DNA from: Candidatus Acidiferrales bacterium
GTDB taxonomy: Bacteria > Acidobacteriota > Terriglobia > Acidoferrales > UBA7541
NCBI GenBank assembly: GCA_030043155.1
Contig: JASHYE010000278.1
Coordinates: 1-8,565 of the forward strand
Length of the DNA stretch: 8,565 nucleotides
Direction of reading: 5' to 3'
Shown: positions 1-8,565 of the stretch, one piece after another
Layout of the letters: each line of letters starts with the position of its first letter
Position numbering within the stretch: the stretch's first letter is position 1
Program-made: the position numbers and the translations under genes
The notes under the pieces: generated by a model
Told to the model about the DNA's origin: nothing
Databases searched by the model: none
What the model saw: only the letters and a program-made list of their open reading frames with translations

Positions 1-1066
1 CCGCGGTTAATTCCGGAAACAGCGGCAGGGCCAAGGCTCGTCTGCATGCGCGCTCGCTGTGAGGAAAATCCCCAGCCTTGTATCCGAGATATGCGAGCGC
101 CTTCTGCAAATGAAGCGGCTGCGGATAATGGATAGCGGTGCCAATGCCGCGGTTTTTCAGTTCCGCTTGAACCGAATCGCGATTGTCGACGTAGATCACG
201 AATAAATGATAGGCGCACTCGTCCCGAGAATCGTCCTGCGGAAGATCAAGCGCGAGAGAGCTTAGCCTTTCGCGATAACGGGCCGCAATTGCTTTGCGGC
301 GAGCGGACCAGTCGTCCAGATAGCGTAGTTTGACCCGCAGAACCGCGCCCTGAAAACCTTCCATCCGGTAGTTGTACCCAATGAAATCGTGGAAATAGCG
401 GCGGAATTCTCCGTGGCTGCGAGCAGCGTGGCAATACTGGGCTACGCGATCATCGTTCGTGACGATGGCGCCGGCTTCGCCATACGCGCCGAGATTTTTG
501 GAGGGATAAAAGCTAAAGGCCGCTGAAATTCCCAGCGAACCGATGCGCTTCCCGCGAAATCGTGCACCGTGTGCTTGCGCGGCATCTTCGATCAAGGCCA
601 GCTTGCGAGAACTGGCAATTTTCTCGAAAGAGCCCATATCAGCCGGGCGTCCATAGAGATGAACAGGAAGAATTGCTTTGGTGCGCGAAGTTATGGCTGC
701 TTCTGCCAGGGCGGGATCGAGATTTGCGGTGCGCGGATCGATGTCCGCAAACATGATTTTCGCACCGGTGTAAGCGATCGCTTCAGCAGTGGCGATGAAA
801 GTATTGGGCGTGGTGATGACTTCATCGCCCGGGCCAACGCCGGCGGCCAGGAGCGCGAGATGGAGGGCGCTGGTGCCGGAATTGAGCGCGATGCAGTGAC
901 GAGCTTCGCAGTAATCGGCGAACTCCTTCTCGAAAGATGCGACTTCGTCTCCCAGGCTGAAAGCAGTATTGCAGCAGGTGCGGTCGAGTGCTTCTAAGAT
1001 TTCCGAGCGCAACGCGGCGTACTGCTCCTTCAGGTCATAGTAAGGAACCGCGGTGATCGTTTTCAC
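1..1066 (-). CDS. DegT/DnrJ/EryC1/StrS-family PLP-dependent sugar aminotransferase, partial at the left edge (C-terminus missing)
   Basis: Reading the complement from a GTG at 1066 gives 355 residues open to the window edge. An in-frame TAA lies four codons upstream (1078-1076), so GTG is the only plausible start; no clear Shine-Dalgarno is visible. The protein is a fold-type I aminotransferase of the DegT family. It shows an N-terminal YYDLKEQY stretch, the cofactor-binding NSGTSALHLAL segment near residues 62-72, IEDAAQAHGA with Asp161 and Gln164 contacting PLP, and SFYPSKNLGAYGEAG with Lys190 as the Schiff-base lysine. These enzymes normally transfer an amino group from glutamate to a nucleotide-linked keto-sugar in the cytoplasm, for glycan or antibiotic sugar synthesis; the exact sugar cannot be read here. 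Family members are usually about 365-400 residues and the last residues seen are LPLFPELTA, so only a short tail is missing. It diverges from the glycosyltransferase gene, which fits a surface-glycan locus. Confidence 0.93.
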   Translation of the reverse strand, partial: MKTITAVPYYDLKEQYAALRSEILEALDRTCCNTAFSLGDEVASFEKEFADYCEARHCIALNSGTSALHLALLAAGVGPGDEVITTPNTFIATAEAIAYTGAKIMFADIDPRTANLDPALAEAAITSRTKAILPVHLYGRPADMGSFEKIASSRKLALIEDAAQAHGARFRGKRIGSLGISAAFSFYPSKNLGAYGEAGAIVTNDDRVAQYCHAARSHGEFRRYFHDFIGYNYRMEGFQGAVLRVKLRYLDDWSARRKAIAARYRERLSSLALDLPQDDSRDECAYHLFVIYVDNRDSVQAELKNRGIGTAIHYPQPLHLQKALAYLGYKAGDFPHSERACRRALALPLFPELTA

Positions 1067-1171: not shown

Positions 1172-1999
1172 ATGGCATCACCTCGCATGGCTGCGGAGAA
1201 GTCGCGGTCCATCATCGAGGCGGCGACTCCAGAAGCCGCCATGAGAGCGAGACCCCAGCTCACGCTATCGGTGATCATCGCCGCATACAATGAACGCCCG
1301 TTCATTGAGGAAATTCTATTTCGCATCCAGTCGGTAGGCTTGGCGCATGAGATTGTGGTCGTCGATGACGGATCTCGCGACGGAACGCGTGAATGGCTCG
1401 CCGAAATGCAACGCAAGCAACAGGCTGGTGAAACGGAAGCGGAAATCCTGGAGGGCGAGGAACGGCTGAGGCTGGGGCCATTACGGTTTTTGTTCCAGGA
1501 ACGCAATCAGGGGAAAGGTGCTGCGCTGAGGCGCGGATTTTCCGAGGCCAGTGGAGACATCTTGCTGGTCCAGGATGCGGATCTTGAATACGATCCGCGG
1601 GATTACCCCAAACTGCTGGAACCGATTCAGGACGGGCGCGCAGATGTTGTTTACGGTTCGCGATTCCTGGGCGGACCGCAGCGCGTTCATTTCTTCTGGC
1701 ACTACATCGGCAACAAGTTCCTGACGTTGCTTTCCGACATGCTGACCAATCTCAAAATCACGGACATGGAAACCTGCTACAAGGTTTTCCGGCGCGAGGT
1801 GATCGGCAGCATGCGGCTGCGGTCCAATCGATTTGGATTCGAGCCCGAAGTGACGGCGCGGGTGGCGAAGGGGCGCTGGAGGGTTTATGAAGTTCCCATC
1901 TCGTATGCCGGCCGTTCGTATGAAGAGGGGAAAAAGATTACGTGGAAGGATGGGCTGACGACGCTCTTCGCGATTTTGCGATACCGCTTCTTTGATTGA
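1172..1999 (+). CDS. Family 2 glycosyltransferase, dolichol-phosphate-mannose-synthase-like
   Basis: This 275-residue GT-A fold enzyme should transfer a sugar from a nucleotide-sugar donor, possibly to a polyprenyl phosphate. Seen in the sequence: the GT2 opening LSVIIAAYNE near residues 32-41, VVDDGSRDG with Asp65/Asp66, NQGKGAALRRGF in the donor site, the metal-binding DAD at 135-137, DVVYGSRFLGG, and the acceptor-side DMETCYKVFRR. The last motif is typical of the DPM1-like subgroup. There is no C-terminal membrane anchor, so it resembles the soluble catalytic form. About 30 residues precede the fold, and a Gln/Glu-rich insert lies near residues 75-100. The ATG at 1172 has a good AAGGAG seven bases upstream. 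It converges with the ABC permease across a 26-base gap. A role in cell-surface glycan assembly with the neighbouring aminotransferase is likely; modification of the lasso peptide is only a possibility. Confidence 0.92.
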   Translation: MASPRMAAEKSRSIIEAATPEAAMRARPQLTLSVIIAAYNERPFIEEILFRIQSVGLAHEIVVVDDGSRDGTREWLAEMQRKQQAGETEAEILEGEERLRLGPLRFLFQERNQGKGAALRRGFSEASGDILLVQDADLEYDPRDYPKLLEPIQDGRADVVYGSRFLGGPQRVHFFWHYIGNKFLTLLSDMLTNLKITDMETCYKVFRREVIGSMRLRSNRFGFEPEVTARVAKGRWRVYEVPISYAGRSYEEGKKITWKDGLTTLFAILRYRFFD

Positions 2000-2025: not shown

Positions 2026-2847
2026 CTAAATATGGGTGAGCGTGCCGGTGATTTTTGTGCGGCGCAGGGCCCAGGCAAAAACGACGAAGGAAAGCGGCAG
2101 TAGCACAGCGGCAAAAATCAGCAGGGCGACGATGGAAGGGAAGATTTCGCGGAGTGCCGCGCCGCCGAGAAGCGCGGCACGCAGACCTTCGAGTGAATAG
2201 GTGAGCGGAATGAAGCGCGCGAGCGTCTGCAAATAGCCGGGGAGGACAGAAACGGGGTACATCATGCCCCCGACCAAGCCGGAAACGCCCAGCAGGAGCC
2301 ATTTCGCAGGATTGCCTCGTTTGAACAGCAGCAGATAGCTCGTGGAAAGGACTCCCAAGCCAGAAAAAGCGAGAATCGAGGCAAGCAGAATGAGGATAGC
2401 GCCAGGCCAGTTCGCCCCGCGCAGCGAAAAGCCGAACAGCAAGACTCCCCATGCGAGATAAACAACCGTTCTCAGAACGGTCGCGAAGAAAGGATAGACC
2501 AGTGACCCAACCAGCATGGCAGGCAGCGAAGTTTGGGTGACGAGAAGGGCTTCGAGAGTGCGATTCTGGCGCGCGTCTTCCAGCGATTTATCGAAGGAGT
2601 CGAGGGCAACACCGAGGTAATCGAAAAGCGCGAAGCCAATCAGTGCAAAGGCGAAATAGTTTCCACCCTGCGGAAGCGCGCGTGTGAGTTCGGGGCTTTG
2701 AACGAAACGAGAGAGAAAATAGAAAGTGGCGACGCCGAAGAGCGCTTCGAAAACCTGCAAGACGAAAGCGCCGCGATACGCTTGCGCGATTCGGAAGTCG
2801 CGGAGAAAAAAGGCGTAAATCTTTCGCAAAATGCGCAGAAGGCTCAT
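2026..2847 (-). CDS. ABC-2 type transporter permease
   Basis: This is the integral membrane subunit of a two-protein ABC transporter, 273 residues from the chosen start. It shows the ABC-2 pattern of about six hydrophobic segments: after an amphipathic start (FFLRDFRIAQAY) come segments around FVLQVFEALFGVATFYFL, YFAFALIGFALFDYLGVAL, a pair near the middle (VLRTVVYLAWGVLLFGF and ILILLASILAFSGLGVL), LLLGVSGLVGGMMYPVSVLP, and IVALLIFAAVLLPLSFVVFAW. The sequence MMYPVSVLPGYLQ followed by IPLTYSLEGLRAALL is characteristic of the family. The ATG at 2847 overlaps the ATPase stop as ATGA, giving translational coupling. An in-frame start at 2928 would add 27 residues, but these merely read through the end of the ATPase gene and are unlike a permease N-terminus. 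Known relatives export drugs, lipids, polysaccharides or peptides; the substrate here is unknown, though divergence from the lasso operon makes the peptide a candidate. Confidence 0.93.
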   Translation of the reverse strand: MSLLRILRKIYAFFLRDFRIAQAYRGAFVLQVFEALFGVATFYFLSRFVQSPELTRALPQGGNYFAFALIGFALFDYLGVALDSFDKSLEDARQNRTLEALLVTQTSLPAMLVGSLVYPFFATVLRTVVYLAWGVLLFGFSLRGANWPGAILILLASILAFSGLGVLSTSYLLLFKRGNPAKWLLLGVSGLVGGMMYPVSVLPGYLQTLARFIPLTYSLEGLRAALLGGAALREIFPSIVALLIFAAVLLPLSFVVFAWALRRTKITGTLTHI

Positions 2848-3650
2848 GTTTTCGGATCGGCCTCCGAATGCGGAGGAGCGAGAATACGGAGGACGTCCTC
2901 GAGGCGAGCCGTATTCGTTGAACGACACAGATTCTTTGCGGTATCCAATGCGCGAATTTCTCCACGATCGAGCAGGAGGACGCGGTCGGAAAGCTCCTCG
3001 ACTTCGGCTACGGAATGCGAGGCGAATAGTAGAGTTGTGCCGTATCGGCCGAGGATTTCAGTTTTCAGGAAGCGACGGAAGTCCGCTGCAGCAAGAGGAT
3101 CGAGGCTTCGCGTAGGTTCGTCGAGAAGAAGGATCGAGGGAGAATGAACAAGCGCGCGCGCGAGGCCGAGCCGCTGGAGCATGCCGGTGGAGTAAGTCCG
3201 TGCCTGGCGGTCGAGAGAGTCCATCCGGAGCAGATCGGCAAGCTCTCCGATCCGGCGCGCGGTTTGCGCGCGCGCGCGATTGTTAAGGATTGCAAAGAGG
3301 GTGAGATTGTCGCGGCCGGTCAGCCGGCCATAAAAACCTTCTTCGATACCTGTGTCATAGCCGATGTGTTTGCGGGCCGCGGCTGGGTCGCGGATAGCGT
3401 CCTCGCCAGCGATTTCAACTCGTCCGCTGGATGGGACAACCAGCGTGGCGAGGACGCGGAGCAGCGTCGATTTGCCTGCACCATTTTCTCCCATCAGGGC
3501 TACGGCCTCTCCGGGTTGGACAGAAAAGGAAATTCCGCCGAGCGCGCGCAACGTTTGCCTGGCGAATGGGTTCCATAGAGCGCGCCACCCGGAATGGGCA
3601 GGCGGGAAATATTTTTCAAGTGCTTGAACGGCAATGGCCGGATGAGGCAC
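2844..3650 (-). CDS. ABC transporter ATP-binding protein, CcmA/DrrA-like, partner of the ABC-2 permease
   Basis: This 268-residue nucleotide-binding subunit powers the adjacent permease at the inner face of the membrane. Visible motifs are Walker A GENGAGKST (54-62), a signature in the STGM form (YSTGMLQRL, 153-161) instead of LSGGQ, Walker B ILLLDEP (173-179), a D-loop in SLDP, and the switch His212 in ASHS. The usual Q-loop glutamine is not evident in the stretch after IGY (IGYDTGIEEGFYGRLTGRDNL region, 96-115). That region and the STGM signature match a subgroup of ABC-2 ATPases rather than classic peptide exporters. The start is GTG at 3650, because a TAA lies four codons upstream. No good ribosome-binding site is visible, while a TATAAC element ends 10 bases upstream, which would suit a leaderless mRNA. 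The gene is read away from the lasso operon across a 145-base gap. Confidence 0.94.
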   Translation of the reverse strand: MPHPAIAVQALEKYFPPAHSGWRALWNPFARQTLRALGGISFSVQPGEAVALMGENGAGKSTLLRVLATLVVPSSGRVEIAGEDAIRDPAAARKHIGYDTGIEEGFYGRLTGRDNLTLFAILNNRARAQTARRIGELADLLRMDSLDRQARTYSTGMLQRLGLARALVHSPSILLLDEPTRSLDPLAAADFRRFLKTEILGRYGTTLLFASHSVAEVEELSDRVLLLDRGEIRALDTAKNLCRSTNTARLEDVLRILAPPHSEADPKT

Positions 3651-3795
3651 GAATGCTGGTTATACCGGAGTAGGCTTGTGGAATCCAGTTCGCATTGCAA
3701 GCTGGACTCCGATGCCTGTAGAATTGAGCTCTCCAGCCGATCCGCGCCATCGCACGTTGATAAGGTAGATTGCTGAATCTCACGCTGAGCCGGTC
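3651..3795. promoter_or_regulatory. Divergent regulatory region between the ABC transporter operon and the lasso operon
   Basis: These 145 bases must serve both transcription directions. On the minus strand, TATAAC (complement of 3661-3666) is a plausible -10 element. TGGATT 17 bases further upstream (complement of 3684-3689) is a weak -35. The predicted RNA start would fall almost at the GTG at 3650. On the plus strand, TTGATA at 3757-3762 looks like a -35 but has no well-spaced -10, and the ribosome-binding site before the B1 start is weak. The region also carries an imperfect inverted repeat, listed separately. All assignments are by eye. Confidence 0.35.
3672..3717. repeat. Imperfect inverted repeat, candidate operator or hairpin
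   Basis: GGAATCCAG at 3680-3688 pairs with CTGGACTCC at 3702-3710, eight of nine positions complementary, across a 13-base spacer. After a small internal loop the outer AGGC (3672-3675) pairs with GCCT (3714-3717). The left arm overlaps the weak -35 proposed for the ABC operon. This would suit an operator for a dimeric regulator, or an RNA hairpin if transcribed. No regulator gene is present in the window. Chance pairing is possible. Confidence 0.35.
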
Positions 3796-4131
3796 ATGTA
3801 CGAGACAAACGCCAACCTCTGCAGTCAGACTATCCTCGTCGCCAGCAAAGAGCAGGTGCACTGCGAGCTCGGAGACGAAGTCGCTATTCTGGGATTGAAG
3901 AACAGCGTGTACTACGGACTGAATCCGGTCGGTGCGCGTGTATGGGGATTATTGCAGCGGCCCAGAAGCGTCGGTGAAATTCGCGACGCGATCGTCACCG
4001 AATATGAGGTAACCGCGGAGCGTTTCGAAAGCGATCTGATTGATCTGCTTCAGCAAATGCTGCGCGAGGGTTTGGTGGAGTTGAGCCGCGAAACCAGTGC
4101 GGCGCCAGAGTCAAGCGCCCGCGAAATTTGA
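3796..4131 (+). CDS. Lasso peptide B1 protein: PqqD-like RiPP recognition element
   Basis: This small cytoplasmic protein of 111 residues should bind the leader of the precursor and present it to the B2 protease. It is a stand-alone PqqD-fold RRE. After a short N-terminal strand region it shows the hallmark ILGLKNSVYYGLNPVGARVW (31-50), where the YYGLN turn and the NxxGxxVW helix start are diagnostic. It then has a helical part with SVGEIRDAIVTEYEV and a final helix LIDLLQQMLREGLVEL (81-96). The last 15 residues are a polar, probably disordered tail. Stand-alone lasso B1 proteins are typically about 80-100 residues, so this is slightly long because of the tail. The start is ATG at 3796, with only a weak upstream GAG. 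It is the first gene of the operon; B2 follows after 60 bases. Its target motif, YxxPxLxxYG, is present in the precursor at 6679-6840. Confidence 0.9.
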   Translation: MYETNANLCSQTILVASKEQVHCELGDEVAILGLKNSVYYGLNPVGARVWGLLQRPRSVGEIRDAIVTEYEVTAERFESDLIDLLQQMLREGLVELSRETSAAPESSAREI

Positions 4132-4191
4132 ACCGTCCCAGCGTGCGAGTGCAGTTTAAGGTCTCTACATTTGGGGATCCTCAGGATTCAA

Positions 4192-4671
4192 ATGCCATTT
4201 ATGAATTCGGCCTTTCATCGGTTTTTCAGACTTTCCTCTCTTGAACAAGGGATGTTTGTCCGCGGAGTTCTCCTGCTGCCCATTGCTGCGTGCGCGCTTC
4301 GGTTCGTTCGAATGAAGACCGTCATGAGTTGGATGGAGGCGCGTGCGGGTGGCGAGCGGCTGCAATGCGAAAGGGATCAGGATGCGATTCGAAGACTGTC
4401 ACAGACAGCGCAAAAAATGCTGGAAGCTGCGTCGCGATACGGCGTGGCCCGAGGAAATTGTCTGTCCAAGTCGATAGTGCTGTGTCATCTCTTGCAGCGA
4501 AATGGTTTGCCGGCAATGCTGCGCGTCGGAGGAAGAAAAGAAGGATTGCAATTCGCGGCGCATGCATGGGTTGAATTGGACAGCATTGTGATCGGTGACT
4601 TCGAAGGTCTCCACAAGGACTTTGTGCCGTTTGATGGAACAAAAAGTGGCGCTTGGAGCAGCGAGCCATGA
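4192..4671 (+). CDS. Lasso peptide B2 protein: transglutaminase-fold leader peptidase
   Basis: This 159-residue protein belongs to the transglutaminase-like cysteine proteases that remove the leader from lasso precursors. The catalytic triad is visible: Cys90 in GNCLSKSIVLCHLLQRNG, His124 in AAHAWVEL and Asp136 in IVIGD. These have the spacing and flanking residues typical of lasso B2 proteins. The N-terminal third is basic and hydrophobic (GVLLLPIAACALRFVRM, about 25-41), as is common in this family, and may associate with membrane or partners. An upstream TTG at 4171 would add seven residues. I prefer ATG at 4192 because AGGA at 4183-4186 lies five bases before it; ATG at 4201 is a less well-spaced alternative. 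The stop overlaps the cyclase start as ATGA (4668-4671), so B2 and C are translationally coupled. Confidence in the family is high because of the triad and the operon context. Confidence 0.92.
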   Translation: MPFMNSAFHRFFRLSSLEQGMFVRGVLLLPIAACALRFVRMKTVMSWMEARAGGERLQCERDQDAIRRLSQTAQKMLEAASRYGVARGNCLSKSIVLCHLLQRNGLPAMLRVGGRKEGLQFAAHAWVELDSIVIGDFEGLHKDFVPFDGTKSGAWSSEP

Positions 4672-6575
4672 GCGGGATTGCAGGTATCGTTCACCTCGGC
4701 GCGAAATCACCAAGCCCAGAACTGCTGCTTCAAATGGCCCGTTCACTGTCATTTCGCGGACCAGACGGGCAACAAATCTGGAGTGATTCCGCGGCCGCGC
4801 TCGTGCATGCGGTGCATTTGATCAAGGGAGACACTACGCGAGCGCAGGGGCCGGAAAGCCTCGGCACGGGCACATGGATTGCAGCGGATGCGCGGTTGGA
4901 CGCGCGCGAGGAATTGATCGAGCACTTGCGCGAGGCTGGTCGGGAAGCTCAAACCTCGTGCAGCGACTCGCGCTTGCTGTTGCATGCGTATGAAGCATGG
5001 GGCGAGGCGTGCGTCCGTCACGTCGCCGGGGATTTCGCATTTGGCATCTGGGATGCCCGGCGAAGGCAACTTTTCTGTGCGTGCGATCAGTTTGGGATTC
5101 GGCAGCTTTATTATTTCACTGACCTTCAGTCCTGCCTGATTTTCAGCAATACCCTCGATTGTGTGAGGTTGCATCCGGACGTTTCCGACAGGCTCAACGA
5201 CACGGCGATTTGCGACTTTCTGCTCTTTGGAGCGAACACGGAAGGAAGCACAACCTCCTTTGCCGATATTCGGCGGTTGCCGCGAGCGCATTGGCTGAAG
5301 TGGTCGGCGGACGGAATCGAGATTCGCGAGTACTGGCGGCTGCCAACAGATGGTGAAATACGTTACAAAAAACGGCGAGAGTATGTGGAGCATTTTAGCG
5401 AGTTATTCCACAAAGCGGTGGCAGACAGAATTCGTGGAGACAGCGCAGGCGTGCTATTAAGCGGCGGGATCGATTCGTCTTCGGTCGCCGCGATTGCTAA
5501 AGAGATAGAACTGAAAGAAGGCTGTCCGAAAGTCTGTGCATTTACCATAACGAGCACAGATAGCGAAGATGCCGATCGCACCGCGGCCCGAACAGTGGCC
5601 GACGCATTGCAAATTCCATTTCATCTCTTGAGAGCGGAGGACGGGGATCTGTCTCAGCACTGGAGCGCCGACGGTTTTCACTTCCCGGAACCCGTAGACG
5701 ATCCTTTTGCGGCGGATACTTTGCGCCACTCCCAGCAAATCGCGAAACTCACAGGCGTGCTTCTGTCGGGTGAAGGATCTGACAACCTGATGGACTGCGA
5801 GCCCGCATATCATCTCCGTCTGGCCTGGAACCAAGGCAGGCGAAAGCAGGCTGCGCTCGACGCGCTAGAGCATGTTGCCGCGCGGTTTTTTGCGCCAGAT
5901 GGAATAAGGGGAACGCTGCGGCGATTCCGATCACTGGCAAGTCCTCCAGCGGAACTGCAGTTTCCGAACTGGATGAATGAAGATGTTGTGCAGCGGCTGA
6001 AACTCAAACAACGTTGGCTCGAACACGATTCATCGATTCCATGGAGAGCTCATCCGGACCGCCCAGGCGGCTACGCATCCCTGTTTTTCCCGCAGTGGAG
6101 AATCTTTTTTGAGCGCCTTGACCCTGCCTATACGCACGCGGCTTTGGATGTGAGGTATCCGTTCCTGGATCTGCGGGTGGCTGAATATTTGTTGGCCATT
6201 CCGGCGATGCCCTGGTTTTTTCGCAAGTTCCTGCTGCGAGAATCCATGCGAGGCCGCCTGCCAGAAGAAATTCGCAAACGGGCGAAGATACCTAACAAAG
6301 CGCCGCAGCCGTCTGGCTCGCGGCATGATGTGGAGAAGTTCAATTTTTCAGGAGAAAAGTTGTGCCCGGAGCTTGATCAATATGTGAAGCCGGAAGCTGT
6401 CGAACGGACTCCGTCCGGCGCGAATCCTGAGGCAATAGAGATGAGCCTTCGACCGTGGTATTTGAACTTTTGGCTGGAGGGCTTGCAAAAGGAGAACGCT
6501 GCGAACGCGGCAGACACGGATCGCATTTACCGGCGCAGGGTTGATTTTTTTCAGCAAAGTCAGCCCTTCACCTGA
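4668..6575 (+). CDS. Lasso peptide C protein: asparagine-synthetase-like macrolactam cyclase
   Basis: This 635-residue enzyme should adenylate the side chain of an Asp or Glu in the core peptide and form the isopeptide bond with the freed N-terminus. It has the two-domain AsnB plan. Residues 1 to about 210 resemble a class II glutaminase domain (MSGIAGIV, FRGPDG, HVAGDFAFGIWD, CDQFGIRQLYY). The rest is the ATP-pyrophosphatase synthetase domain with the PP-loop SGGIDSS (265-271), LSGEGSDN (366-373), and a C-terminal KFLLRESMRGRLP with Lys520 and Arg524. The nucleophilic Cys2 of real amidotransferases is Ser2 here, so glutamine hydrolysis is not expected; this fits cyclase duty and argues against asparagine synthesis. 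In the second motif the usual ADE is SDN. ATG 4668 is chosen over TTG 4653 because it matches the conserved MSGIAGI start and overlaps B2. The precursor gene follows after 103 bases. Confidence 0.93.
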   Translation: MSGIAGIVHLGAKSPSPELLLQMARSLSFRGPDGQQIWSDSAAALVHAVHLIKGDTTRAQGPESLGTGTWIAADARLDAREELIEHLREAGREAQTSCSDSRLLLHAYEAWGEACVRHVAGDFAFGIWDARRRQLFCACDQFGIRQLYYFTDLQSCLIFSNTLDCVRLHPDVSDRLNDTAICDFLLFGANTEGSTTSFADIRRLPRAHWLKWSADGIEIREYWRLPTDGEIRYKKRREYVEHFSELFHKAVADRIRGDSAGVLLSGGIDSSSVAAIAKEIELKEGCPKVCAFTITSTDSEDADRTAARTVADALQIPFHLLRAEDGDLSQHWSADGFHFPEPVDDPFAADTLRHSQQIAKLTGVLLSGEGSDNLMDCEPAYHLRLAWNQGRRKQAALDALEHVAARFFAPDGIRGTLRRFRSLASPPAELQFPNWMNEDVVQRLKLKQRWLEHDSSIPWRAHPDRPGGYASLFFPQWRIFFERLDPAYTHAALDVRYPFLDLRVAEYLLAIPAMPWFFRKFLLRESMRGRLPEEIRKRAKIPNKAPQPSGSRHDVEKFNFSGEKLCPELDQYVKPEAVERTPSGANPEAIEMSLRPWYLNFWLEGLQKENAANAADTDRIYRRRVDFFQQSQPFT

Positions 6576-6627
6576 CATTTTCCTCTGTTTTATACAGCGA
6601 TATATGCAGTACCAGACGAAGTTTCTG

Positions 6628-6655
6628 TTGAAGACTGAAAGCTTGGGCGTATACC
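6628..6655 (+). promoter_or_regulatory. Possible internal promoter for the lasso precursor gene
   Basis: TTGAAG at 6628-6633 and TATACC at 6650-6655 each match four of six bases of the sigma-70 consensus, and they are 16 bases apart. The predicted start of RNA, near 6662, would leave a short leader before the precursor ATG at 6679. A separate promoter would let the precursor be made in excess of its enzymes. Matches of this quality occur by chance, so support is modest. Confidence 0.3.
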
Positions 6656-6678
6656 ATTTTGATCAGGTGCGAGGAACC

Positions 6679-6840
6679 ATGAATACGCAACGGCCAAACT
6701 CGACGAACGACAAAAGAGCATACCATCGGCCGGTGCTGACGGTTTATGGGACCGTGTGGCAGTTGACGCAGAGGATCGGCCGGCATGGCAATTCGGATTC
6801 GACACATCCGTTTGGCCTGCGCGTCAGAACCCATGCCTAG
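6679..6840 (+). CDS. Lasso peptide precursor (A)
   Basis: The 53-residue product is a RiPP precursor. The leader, residues 1-31, carries Y15-HR-P18-V-L20-TV-Y23-G24, the YxxPxLxxYG motif recognised by B1 proteins, followed by WQLTQ with Thr30. Lasso leaders usually have Thr at the penultimate position, which puts cleavage after Gln31. The core would then be RIGRHGNSD (ring, Arg32 to Asp40) plus the tail STHPFGLRVRTHA, 22 residues in all. Asp40 is the only acidic residue in the core and would be position 9, within the known 7-9 residue ring range. The alternative of Gly34 as first residue would give a 7-residue ring. There are no cysteines, so no disulfide; the core is basic with four Arg and three His. 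ATG 6679 has GAGG at 6671-6674. An in-frame ATG at 6604 would add 25 residues and make an unusually long leader. Its target and activity are unknown. Confidence 0.88.
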   Translation: MNTQRPNSTNDKRAYHRPVLTVYGTVWQLTQRIGRHGNSDSTHPFGLRVRTHA

Positions 6841-6895
6841 TCTGAAATTCGATTGCTTTTTGCGATAAACAACAAGATACAGTCAAAGAAGCAAA

Positions 6896-7894
6896 GTGAC
6901 ACCTGCCCCGTTTGCCTATTCCGCGTTTGGGTTGCGACTCGTCTCAACTCGGCAGCTTCACGGATTAATACCCATCGGCGGTCAGACGGCGATCGCCGAT
7001 TTGCGGGTTGAATTCGTTAAAGGAGCCAATGGGACCATTGGCGATCCGGCAGGCGAGACCATTTGGTATACGACCGACATCCTCGATGAGCACGGTGATC
7101 CGGCGCTAAGAATCTGGAAGGGGCGGAGCGCCGGAGAATACTTCATTCGATATATTAACGGCCTGACGTTTTGCCTTGATTCCACGATTACACGCATGCT
7201 GGTGCTGTGCGGGCAGCCGATGAGTCATGCGGACGTTTGTTCCTTTCTGCTGGGGCCTGTAATGGGAATTGCTTTGCGGATCAGAGGAATCACGTGCTTG
7301 CACGCGAGCGCAGTGGAAATCCGAGGGCACGCCGTCGCCTTCCTGGGTCAGATGGGCGCCGGAAAATCAACTACCGCTGCAATATTTGCCCGCAATGGCC
7401 ACGCAGTCTTGACGGACGATATTGTGGCCCTCGAGAAATGCGGAGATACCTTCTTCGCACACTCAAGCTATCCCTTTCTAAACCTGCTACCCGATTCGAT
7501 GAGACTGGTGTTTGGCACCGGTGACGGGTGCTCCTCCACTGATCCCGAAGTTGAAAAAACTCAAGTAATGCTGAATGGAGGAGGGCTTCGATTTGAGAGC
7601 CGATTGCTGGCTCTGGACCGCATTTATCTCTTGGAGCGCGCCAGCGACACTGCTGCAACAACAATCCTTCCTGTTCGTCCGCAACAAGCGCTCATCGAGC
7701 TTTCCTCGCAGACCTACGCAAACAAGATACTGGATCAACAAATGCGCTCGCGCGAGTTTCAGATGCTGGGTGAGCTGGTCAAGAATGTAGTGGTCCGCCG
7801 CCTGATTGCGCCAGCGAACGCGCCGGATATCGGCAACTTGTACCGCACGATCATTCAAGATGCTTCGTCAAGCACGCTTGTGCGGAGCCATTAA
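6896..7894 (+). CDS. HPr kinase-like protein associated with the lasso operon
   Basis: This 332-residue protein resembles the HprK-related kinases found in lasso peptide clusters. The N-terminal 130 residues are poorly conserved. The kinase core then shows LHASAVEIRG (135-144), the P-loop GQMGAGKST (151-159) and GHAVLTDDIVAL with Asp174/Asp175, the same order as the HxxxVxxxG, Walker A and ADD motifs of bacterial HPr kinase. Some lasso-associated homologues phosphorylate a C-terminal serine on the precursor. Here the precursor ends in Ala, so the substrate is unclear; Ser39, Ser41, Thr42 and Thr51 are the hydroxyl residues in the core. The start is GTG at 6896 with a weak AAGAAG upstream; it opens the fold with FAYSAFGLRL, typical of this family's N-terminus. 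It lies 55 bases after the precursor on the same strand, with no strong terminator between, so it is probably co-transcribed. Confidence 0.87.
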   Translation: MTPAPFAYSAFGLRLVSTRQLHGLIPIGGQTAIADLRVEFVKGANGTIGDPAGETIWYTTDILDEHGDPALRIWKGRSAGEYFIRYINGLTFCLDSTITRMLVLCGQPMSHADVCSFLLGPVMGIALRIRGITCLHASAVEIRGHAVAFLGQMGAGKSTTAAIFARNGHAVLTDDIVALEKCGDTFFAHSSYPFLNLLPDSMRLVFGTGDGCSSTDPEVEKTQVMLNGGGLRFESRLLALDRIYLLERASDTAATTILPVRPQQALIELSSQTYANKILDQQMRSREFQMLGELVKNVVVRRLIAPANAPDIGNLYRTIIQDASSSTLVRSH

Positions 7895-7998
7895 CCATAC
7901 AATTTGAGGTCGCCTCCCCGGTTGGAGGATATTCCGGAACGATTTTGTTGTTGCGCTGGCCAAGATTCTCGTAGCAGATTACGACGCGAGGAACTTGC
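7895..7998. other. Intergenic region after the kinase gene, with a short hairpin
   Basis: These 104 bases separate the kinase from the TPR protein gene. CCTCC at 7913-7917 pairs with GGAGG at 7924-7928 around a six-base loop, just after the kinase stop. There is no following T-run, so it is at best a weak terminator. The ribosome-binding site GAGGA at 7988-7992 supports the GTG start at 7999. No promoter was placed with confidence. Confidence 0.3.
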
Positions 7999-8018
7999 GT
8001 GGAGGATATTCGAAAACG
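7923..8018. repeat. Pair of short direct repeats around the start of the TPR protein gene
   Basis: TGGAGGATATTC occurs at 7923-7934 and again at 8000-8011. With the following seven bases, 16 of 19 positions match between 7923-7941 and 8000-8018. The copies are 77 bases apart. The second copy covers all but the first base of the GTG start and the first codons of the TPR gene. This could be a short duplication or chance; no function is evident. Confidence 0.3.
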
Positions 8019-8565
8019 CGGAGCGGTTCTCTGCATTAGTGCGTTGATCTTTATAGCCATCGTTTATCAGGCGGCAAGTCTCTGGGTCGCGTGGCACTGG
8101 GAGCGCTCCAGCGAACAGAGCGAACAAATCAAGGGCGCGAAACTCATTCCCGGAGATGCAGAGGCATGGGATCGCATTGGAGAGGCCGAGGAGGCCAATT
8201 TCGATGCTCCCCCCGCAGGAGCCATCGGGTTTCTTGAGCACGCCGTGAAAGCGAACCCGCTGTCGGCCCGCAATTGGATGGACCTTGCGCAAGCCTGCGA
8301 AGCCAATGGAGACATAGTGGATGCGAACACGGCGTATCAGAAGGCCCAGAAAGACGATCCAATTTCGCCTGATGTTGCCTGGAAGTACGGTAATTTTCTA
8401 TTGCGACAAGGAGAAACTACCGCGGGCCTGGAACAGGTGCATCGCTCACTCTTGAGGGATCCACGGCTGGTTCCGCTGGCCATTTCAAGAGTTTGGCGTT
8501 CAGATCTGAATATCAAAGCGATGCTCCATGAAGTCCTTCCGCAAGATGAGTCCTCCTGGTTTTAT
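7999..8565 (+). CDS. Membrane-anchored TPR-repeat protein, partial at the right edge
   Basis: The frame stays open from GTG at 7999 to the end of the window, 189 residues, with the C-terminus missing. GTG is chosen because an in-frame TAG lies at 7972-7974, no other usual start codon intervenes, and GAGGA ends six bases upstream. The N-terminus has a basic start (EDIRKRG) followed by one hydrophobic segment, about residues 8-31, that should be a signal anchor placing the rest outside the cytoplasmic membrane. From about residue 53 there are helical repeats of the tetratricopeptide type: an AEAWDRIGEAEEA unit, GAIGFLEHAVKANPLSARNWMDLAQACEANGD, ANTAYQKAQKDDPISPDVAWKYGNFLLRQGE and LEQVHRSLLRDP. 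TPR proteins act as protein-interaction scaffolds; the partner cannot be inferred. Proteins of this plan are common beside exopolysaccharide genes, which would match the left flank, but a link to the lasso operon is not shown. Confidence 0.82.
   Translation, partial: MEDIRKRGAVLCISALIFIAIVYQAASLWVAWHWERSSEQSEQIKGAKLIPGDAEAWDRIGEAEEANFDAPPAGAIGFLEHAVKANPLSARNWMDLAQACEANGDIVDANTAYQKAQKDDPISPDVAWKYGNFLLRQGETTAGLEQVHRSLLRDPRLVPLAISRVWRSDLNIKAMLHEVLPQDESSWFY

Follow-up and report, generated by a model that had tools for sequence, protein, structure and literature searches.

A complete lasso-peptide operon with an HprK-like kinase gene in an uncultured acidobacterium and its recurrent exopolysaccharide neighbourhood

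Open reading frames were taken over the full window, the whole 8,565-nucleotide stretch of DNA analysed here, in which five genes follow one another in the order B1-B2-C-A-K, all on the plus strand at 3796-7894. These genes, their parts and their neighbours are as follows:

2-1066, minus strand: DegT-type sugar aminotransferase, outside the ABC pair
1172-1999, plus strand: GT2 glycosyltransferase, outside the ABC pair
2026-2928, minus strand: ABC-2 permease, 273 aa from an internal Met (PF01061, E 7e-12)
2844-3650, minus strand: ABC transporter ATPase, divergent from B1, candidate exporter/immunity gene (D) (PF00005, E 4e-29)
3796-4131, plus strand: B1, PqqD-like RiPP recognition element (RRE), 111 aa (PF05402, E 3e-16)
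4171-4671, plus strand: open reading frame of B2, leader peptidase (PF13471, E 1e-18)
4668-6575, plus strand: C, AsnB-like lasso cyclase, 635 aa, ATG at 4668 (Asn_synthase, E 3e-38)
6679-6840, plus strand: A, lasso precursor, 53 aa, ATG at 6679 (related database proteins and L001)
6679-6771, plus strand: leader of A, 31 aa, with Tyr(-17), Pro(-14), Leu(-12) and Thr(-2)
6772-6837, plus strand: predicted core of A, RIGRHGNSDSTHPFGLRVRTHA (register from Thr(-2) and Tyr(-17))
6796-6798 and 6829-6831, plus strand: codons of Asp9 and of Thr20 (candidate phosphosite) of the predicted core
6896-7894, plus strand: K, HprK-like kinase, 332 aa, GTG start (catalytic motif, structure model)
7999-8565, plus strand: TPR protein, 5' part only, the gene being cut by the window end (TPR matches)

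The start of C overlaps the stop of B2 by 4 nt, and gaps of 103 and 55 bases separate C from A and A from K. Against L001, a Candidatus Acidiferrales MAG that is the nearest relative among the loci listed and whose enzymes are 82-95% identical to those of the window, dN/dS was 0.12-0.38 over all five genes. Together with the recurrence of the five-gene order in 43 of the 79 loci described below, this indicates that the operon is not a chance arrangement. Coordinates, strand, profiles and conservation all agree with the complete co-directional lasso operon read at 3796-7894 in the preliminary description. No RNA family scored above its gathering threshold in the window, and a promoter and terminator scan of 3500-8100 gave no more sites than shuffled sequences did.

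B1, B2 and C were firmly identified by Pfam profiles; the preliminary description had named them as RRE, peptidase and AsnB-like cyclase, and the profiles on which it had staked those identities all matched. B1 scored above the cut-off of PF05402 and below that of the lasso model NF033536 (58.3 vs 80 bits), its family profile matched TbiB1 (5v1u, E 2e-22) and TfuB1 (6jx3, E 2e-6), and Tyr39 was invariant in 18/18 aligned B1 proteins. B2 exceeded the curated cut-off of NF033537 'lasso peptide biosynthesis B2' (68.6 vs 33 bits) as well as that of PF13471 (Transglut_core3), with relatives favouring an ATG at 4201 over the reading frame start at 4171. Its Cys97 and His131 (numbered from 4171) were invariant in 17/17 proteins; Asp143 is present in the window protein and is not invariant among relatives. 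A search of the PDB with the B2 profile returned a single row, a designed protein, at E 0.76. In C, the Asn_synthase (PF00733) and GATase domains were above cut-off, and the match to the lasso cyclase model NF033535 was below it (301.9 vs 525 bits). AsnB has a glutaminase Cys2, which is absent from C here: C carries Ser at position 2 along with an SGGIDSS ATP motif, and M1-S2-G3 and SGG-DSS were invariant in 50/50 cyclases. Viral contigs contained none of six exact peptide patterns taken from the cyclase.

The 79 loci were obtained with the cyclase profile from the best 80 of at least 447 confirmed matches, and 59 of them have A between C and K (C-A-K). Among the acidobacterial loci L001-L024, several of which end at contig ends, 13/24 have B1-B2-C-A-K and 23/24 have C-A-K (23/25 if the Acidiferrales locus L045, with C alone, is counted). 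At least 1400 bases lie upstream of C in 19 of these 24; 12 of the 19 carry all five genes, and in 5 others C-A-K lacks B1/B2 upstream and an isolated B1-B2 pair is found at another place. The preliminary description had presented the order as distinctive, with the precursor following the enzymes. That claim fell: 43/79 loci have the identical order, orders with C before A appear in the available accounts of paeninodin and BGC 44.1, and an unusual gene order was rejected as a novelty. The cluster is a complete lasso operon of a known kind, and its gene order is the one usual in its lineage. Of 396 genomes drawn from the phylum, 35 had matches to the cyclase profile (E up to 1e-60). The corresponding loci (L080, L083-L111) come with flanks of about 1.5 kb, and many resemble other AsnB proteins. 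All were kept out of the order counts; only L083 and L085 supplied sequences of K, B1 and B2 to the alignments.

Variants of this layout were also seen. In the genomes of L007, L010, L013, L014 and L022, which have C-A-K without B1/B2, the B1-B2 pair lies on another contig (L113 480-1233, L118 4026-4731, L114 4524-5325, L116 4377-5085 and L119 2625-3342), with no cyclase match in the fetched flanks of the five pairs; in these genomes the lasso system perhaps works in trans. A further B2 lies beside a distant cyclase-like gene in three of these genomes (L112, L115, L117); the B2 match G401:C9 was left out of this comparison. Two precursor genes lie between C and K in L002 (10000-10389) and L025 (9583-9935), while L009 has two K matches and an extra precursor-like reading frame in a genome holding four precursor-profile matches.

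The precursor A is best read as 53 aa from the ATG at 6679, which is preceded by GAGGA and is also the start in P0002-P0004 and L001. A longer reading from 6604 gives 78 aa, the form held in the database entry of the window's own protein (P0001). Relatives of A in the database were three besides that entry (P0002-P0004), plus L001, with whose precursor it shares 47/52 residues at a dN/dS of 0.165; A is under purifying selection. A matched NF033528 'lasso_cyano' at E 6e-6, below the cut-off (26.1 vs 33 bits). Since B1, C and A in their lasso models and K in its HprK models all stayed below cut-off, precursor and kinase were checked by other routes. Tyr15, Pro18, Gly24 and Thr30 were invariant in an alignment of 30 precursors. 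A profile search found at least 214 precursor-like proteins, of which 120, the window's own included, were examined. The leader pattern fits 119/120, the exception being P0213 with Phe instead of Tyr, and the YxxPxL-type leader given in the preliminary description was confirmed, Tyr(-17), Pro(-14), Leu(-12) and Thr(-2) all being kept in A.

K scored below the cut-off of Pfam Hpr_kinase_C (27.2 vs 33.3 bits). Its His-Gly-Lys-Ser-Asp-Asp residues have the spacing of H148-G163-K169-S170-D186-D187 in BsfK, as given in the available text on that kinase, its structure model aligns with HprK and PEPCK, and its GTG start is shared with L001. The catalytic His-Lys-Asp-Asp and the HprK/PEPCK-like model uphold the HprK-like kinase proposed earlier. 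As to its target, the accessible accounts state that paeninodin-type lasso kinases phosphorylate a C-terminal Ser (PMC8498205) and that the site of BsfK is core Ser3 (PMC10368454). The window core ends in R-T-H-A, lacking the C-terminal Ser acceptor of the paeninodin type, and related tails carry [K/R][S/T]; we therefore filed the locus as a kinase-bearing lasso cluster and not as paeninodin type. With a search profile that already contained the C-terminal motif, [K/R][S/T] occurred within the last 6 residues of 100/120 precursors (91/110 distinct tails), against a mean of 20.5 and a maximum of 36 in 2000 trials with shuffled tails. In loci with both A and K, the first precursor carried the motif in 18/23 cases among L001-L024 vs 4/35 among L026-L079 (5/36 if the latter are joined by L025, a Gemmatimonadetes locus with the motif that falls outside both groups). 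This fits a specificity of the acidobacterial kinases, short of proof; no acidobacterial cluster turned up that has a precursor but lacks K and could have served as a control.

Thr20 is the sole core Ser/Thr kept in 4/4 close rows (the window and its three relatives) and in L001, and we consider that K probably phosphorylates it, judging from the C-terminal [K/R]-[S/T] motif. Alternatively, K may act on another residue (Ser8, Ser10 or Thr11) or be inactive on this peptide. BsfK and the paeninodin-type kinases with their different targets, the second absent here, give that view some footing, as does the rarity of [K/R][S/T] in K-adjacent precursors outside Acidobacteriota. However, Ser8, Ser10 and Thr11 vary among close relatives while Thr20 is constant, which leaves the alternative rather improbable, though well short of negligible.

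The core register was set from Thr(-2). Tyr(-17) with Thr(-2) is a published spacing, and RREs are reported to help form a pocket for Thr(-2) (PMC10368454, available text). The distance from Tyr to Thr was 15 residues in each of the 119 precursors fitting the leader pattern, equal to the published spacing. In this register, residue 1 was T in 39, A in 32, S in 19, K in 11, R in 9, N in 5, M in 2 and Q and H in 1 each, and Gly in 0/119, the window's precursor included. The acidic residue fell at position 9 in 61-62, at 10 in 49 and at 8 in 5, with two places in 3/119 and none in 1/119. The Asp of the window's precursor falls at core 9, within the required Asp/Glu at 7-9; for this precursor the register gives RIGRHGNSDSTHPFGLRVRTHA as the most likely core, closed by a ring from Arg1 to Asp9. 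Arg1 would be unusual as residue 1 of a lasso peptide; fusilassin has Trp1. Gly, Cys, Ser and Ala are given as examples of earlier first residues, and Asn is reported as new, in the available text of the metanodin paper (PMC12670498).

Lasso rings are described as having 7-9 residues (PMC5067487, available text). The acceptor Asp lies beyond that range, at 10, in 49/119 precursors, of the YGD-leader type (for example P0158, P0184 and P0192), where a ten-residue ring or a one-residue shift of the cut could apply; the Thr(-2) register may thus not hold for all precursors. Core position 3 is Gly in 68/119, and a Gly start accordingly remains the main rival: the same operon with a core from Gly34 of the precursor, GRHGNSDSTHPFGLRVRTHA, would have a Gly1-Asp7 ring, a mass of 2183.08 Da, or 2263.05 Da with a phosphate, and Thr at -4. 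Gly34 is present in 4/4 close rows (window and P0002-P0004) as well as in those 68, seven-residue Gly1-Asp7 rings are known from huascopeptin, and for BGC 482.1 the available text of Negri et al. (PMC9064862) describes cores chosen for a Gly suitably spaced from an Asp, with Leu or Ser replacing Thr(-2). Yet with this start Tyr would stand at -19 and Arg at -2. In addition, 51/119 precursors have A, S, P, T, N, H, V, L, D or R instead of Gly34, whereas none of the 119 lacks the Thr, and RREs are reported to help shape the pocket for Thr(-2) (PMC10368454); we regard the Gly34 start as unlikely. An Ile(-2) register as in Bradymonas was rejected, for Ile33 at -2 leaves only six residues to Asp.

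Taken together, the locus is likely a working operon for lasso-peptide biosynthesis, from an uncultured acidobacterium close to Candidatus Acidiferrales, and would yield an Arg1-Asp9 lasso with a phosphate on Thr20. From the gene content, order, motifs and conservation observed, we infer the following route. B1 would bind the leader through Tyr-17, Pro-14 and Leu-12, and K would phosphorylate the linear precursor, most likely at core Thr20. The B1-B2 pair would then cleave after Gln31 in Thr-Gln, with Thr at -2, and C would adenylate Asp9 and attach it to Arg1 at the alpha-amino group as the tail is threaded. The predicted lasso has 22 residues, nine of them in the ring, and a calculated mass of 2452.27 Da (2532.24 Da with the phosphate); it is probably exported by the divergent ABC transporter. 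The test offered in the preliminary description, a peptide 18 Da lighter than the core, left the core undefined and ignored the kinase; the expected product is the core minus 18 Da and probably plus 80 Da. With a core register to aim at, a specified phosphosite and two masses to tell the outcomes apart, a further expression attempt becomes testable.

The closest described layout is that of BGC 44.1 (Negri et al. 2022, PMC9064862), whose order of ABC permease, ABC ATPase, B1, B2, C and A, with acidobacterial best matches, resembles the window from 2026 on. By its description, gene sizes are close, and the 273-aa permease equals the D1 gene (822 bp) in size. Unlike the window, BGC 44.1 has no kinase listed or cloned in the available text. 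Cloned as A, B1, B2, C and two D genes, it gave no detectable product in E. coli or Burkholderia, and such a failure of a cluster of similar layout in two hosts counts against the reading we favour. The related metagenomic BGCs 40.1 and 482.1 gave no detectable product in E. coli (PMC9064862), and the bsf cluster of Bradymonas is described as silent under laboratory conditions (PMC10368454). These cases would suit a silent or decaying cluster making no lasso peptide in nature, but all five genes of the window are open and under purifying selection relative to L001, so we hold that explanation to be highly improbable. The failed expressions may be due to the lack of a kinase or to an incorrectly predicted mass. 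No description of the product was found in the literature excerpts covered, in line with the earlier impression that it appears uncharacterised, nor did these excerpts describe any acidobacterial lasso product.

Other known systems share parts of the arrangement, as far as their available texts go. Paeninodin has split B1/B2, an HprK-like kinase and A directly between C and K (PMC5067487, PMC9266682), whereas its order is C-A-K-B1-B2-D (PMC5067487) and its phosphate sits on the C-terminal Ser in place of the conserved [K/R]-T of the window. The bsf cluster has the same kinase residues and spacing and the B1/B2 split, but Ile(-2) and Ser3 phosphorylation where the window has Thr(-2) and Gly at position 3 (PMC10368454). 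Metanodin, a soil metagenome lasso peptide, likewise has a residue 1 other than Gly, set by Thr(-2) and the ring-forming Asp; it differs in Asn1 and a classical ABC architecture, the window having a predicted Arg1, a split B and a kinase (PMC12670498).

Residue 1, the phosphosite and the exopolysaccharide neighbourhood are the points of the cluster that deserve attention. In L001 (5669-11629), genes for Wzy_C, Poly_export and Wzz/tyrosine kinase come after a TPR gene, and the TPR gene of the window corresponds to the first of this run. By tblastn with L001 and L002 proteins, exopolysaccharide genes flank the lasso cluster in 11/24 loci L001-L024 (L001, L002, L007-L010, L013, L014, L016, L022 and L024). 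Wzy_C was then checked in 17 of the 24 genomes, picked after the tblastn outcome and mostly with longer contigs; the 7 omitted (L003-L006, L012, L015 and L021) had no exopolysaccharide gene by tblastn. It lay at most about 7 kb from the cyclase on the same contig in 10/17 genomes (10/24 with the omitted 7 as misses), where about 0.29 of 17 is expected from copy number and genome size. The corresponding P of about 3e-14 assumes independent genomes, which they are not, and is unadjusted for the choice of the 17. The exopolysaccharide run occurs in at least two layouts, downstream on the same strand and upstream and divergent, which indicates that the linkage is not one frozen arrangement. Acidobacterial lasso clusters thus repeatedly lie next to portions of an exopolysaccharide run (TPR, O-antigen polymerase, Wza-like, Wzz/tyrosine kinase), a first clue to a possible role of the peptide, which may lie in exopolysaccharide biology. 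A bolder proposal, which we hold to be distinctly unlikely, is a separate acidobacterial lasso family with a non-Gly start (here Arg1-Asp9) and a C-terminal [K/R]-T motif whose Thr is phosphorylated by the co-encoded HprK-like kinase, acting with the adjoining exopolysaccharide locus; if true, the phospho-Thr could serve, for example, as an attachment point or a capsule-assembly signal. On the other side of the operon, the divergent ABC pair beside B1 is also found in L002, L008, L016, L017 and L020, and L001 has an ABC ATPase near its contig end. DegT aminotransferase and GT2 genes lie on the same side of the lasso cluster in L002 as in the window.
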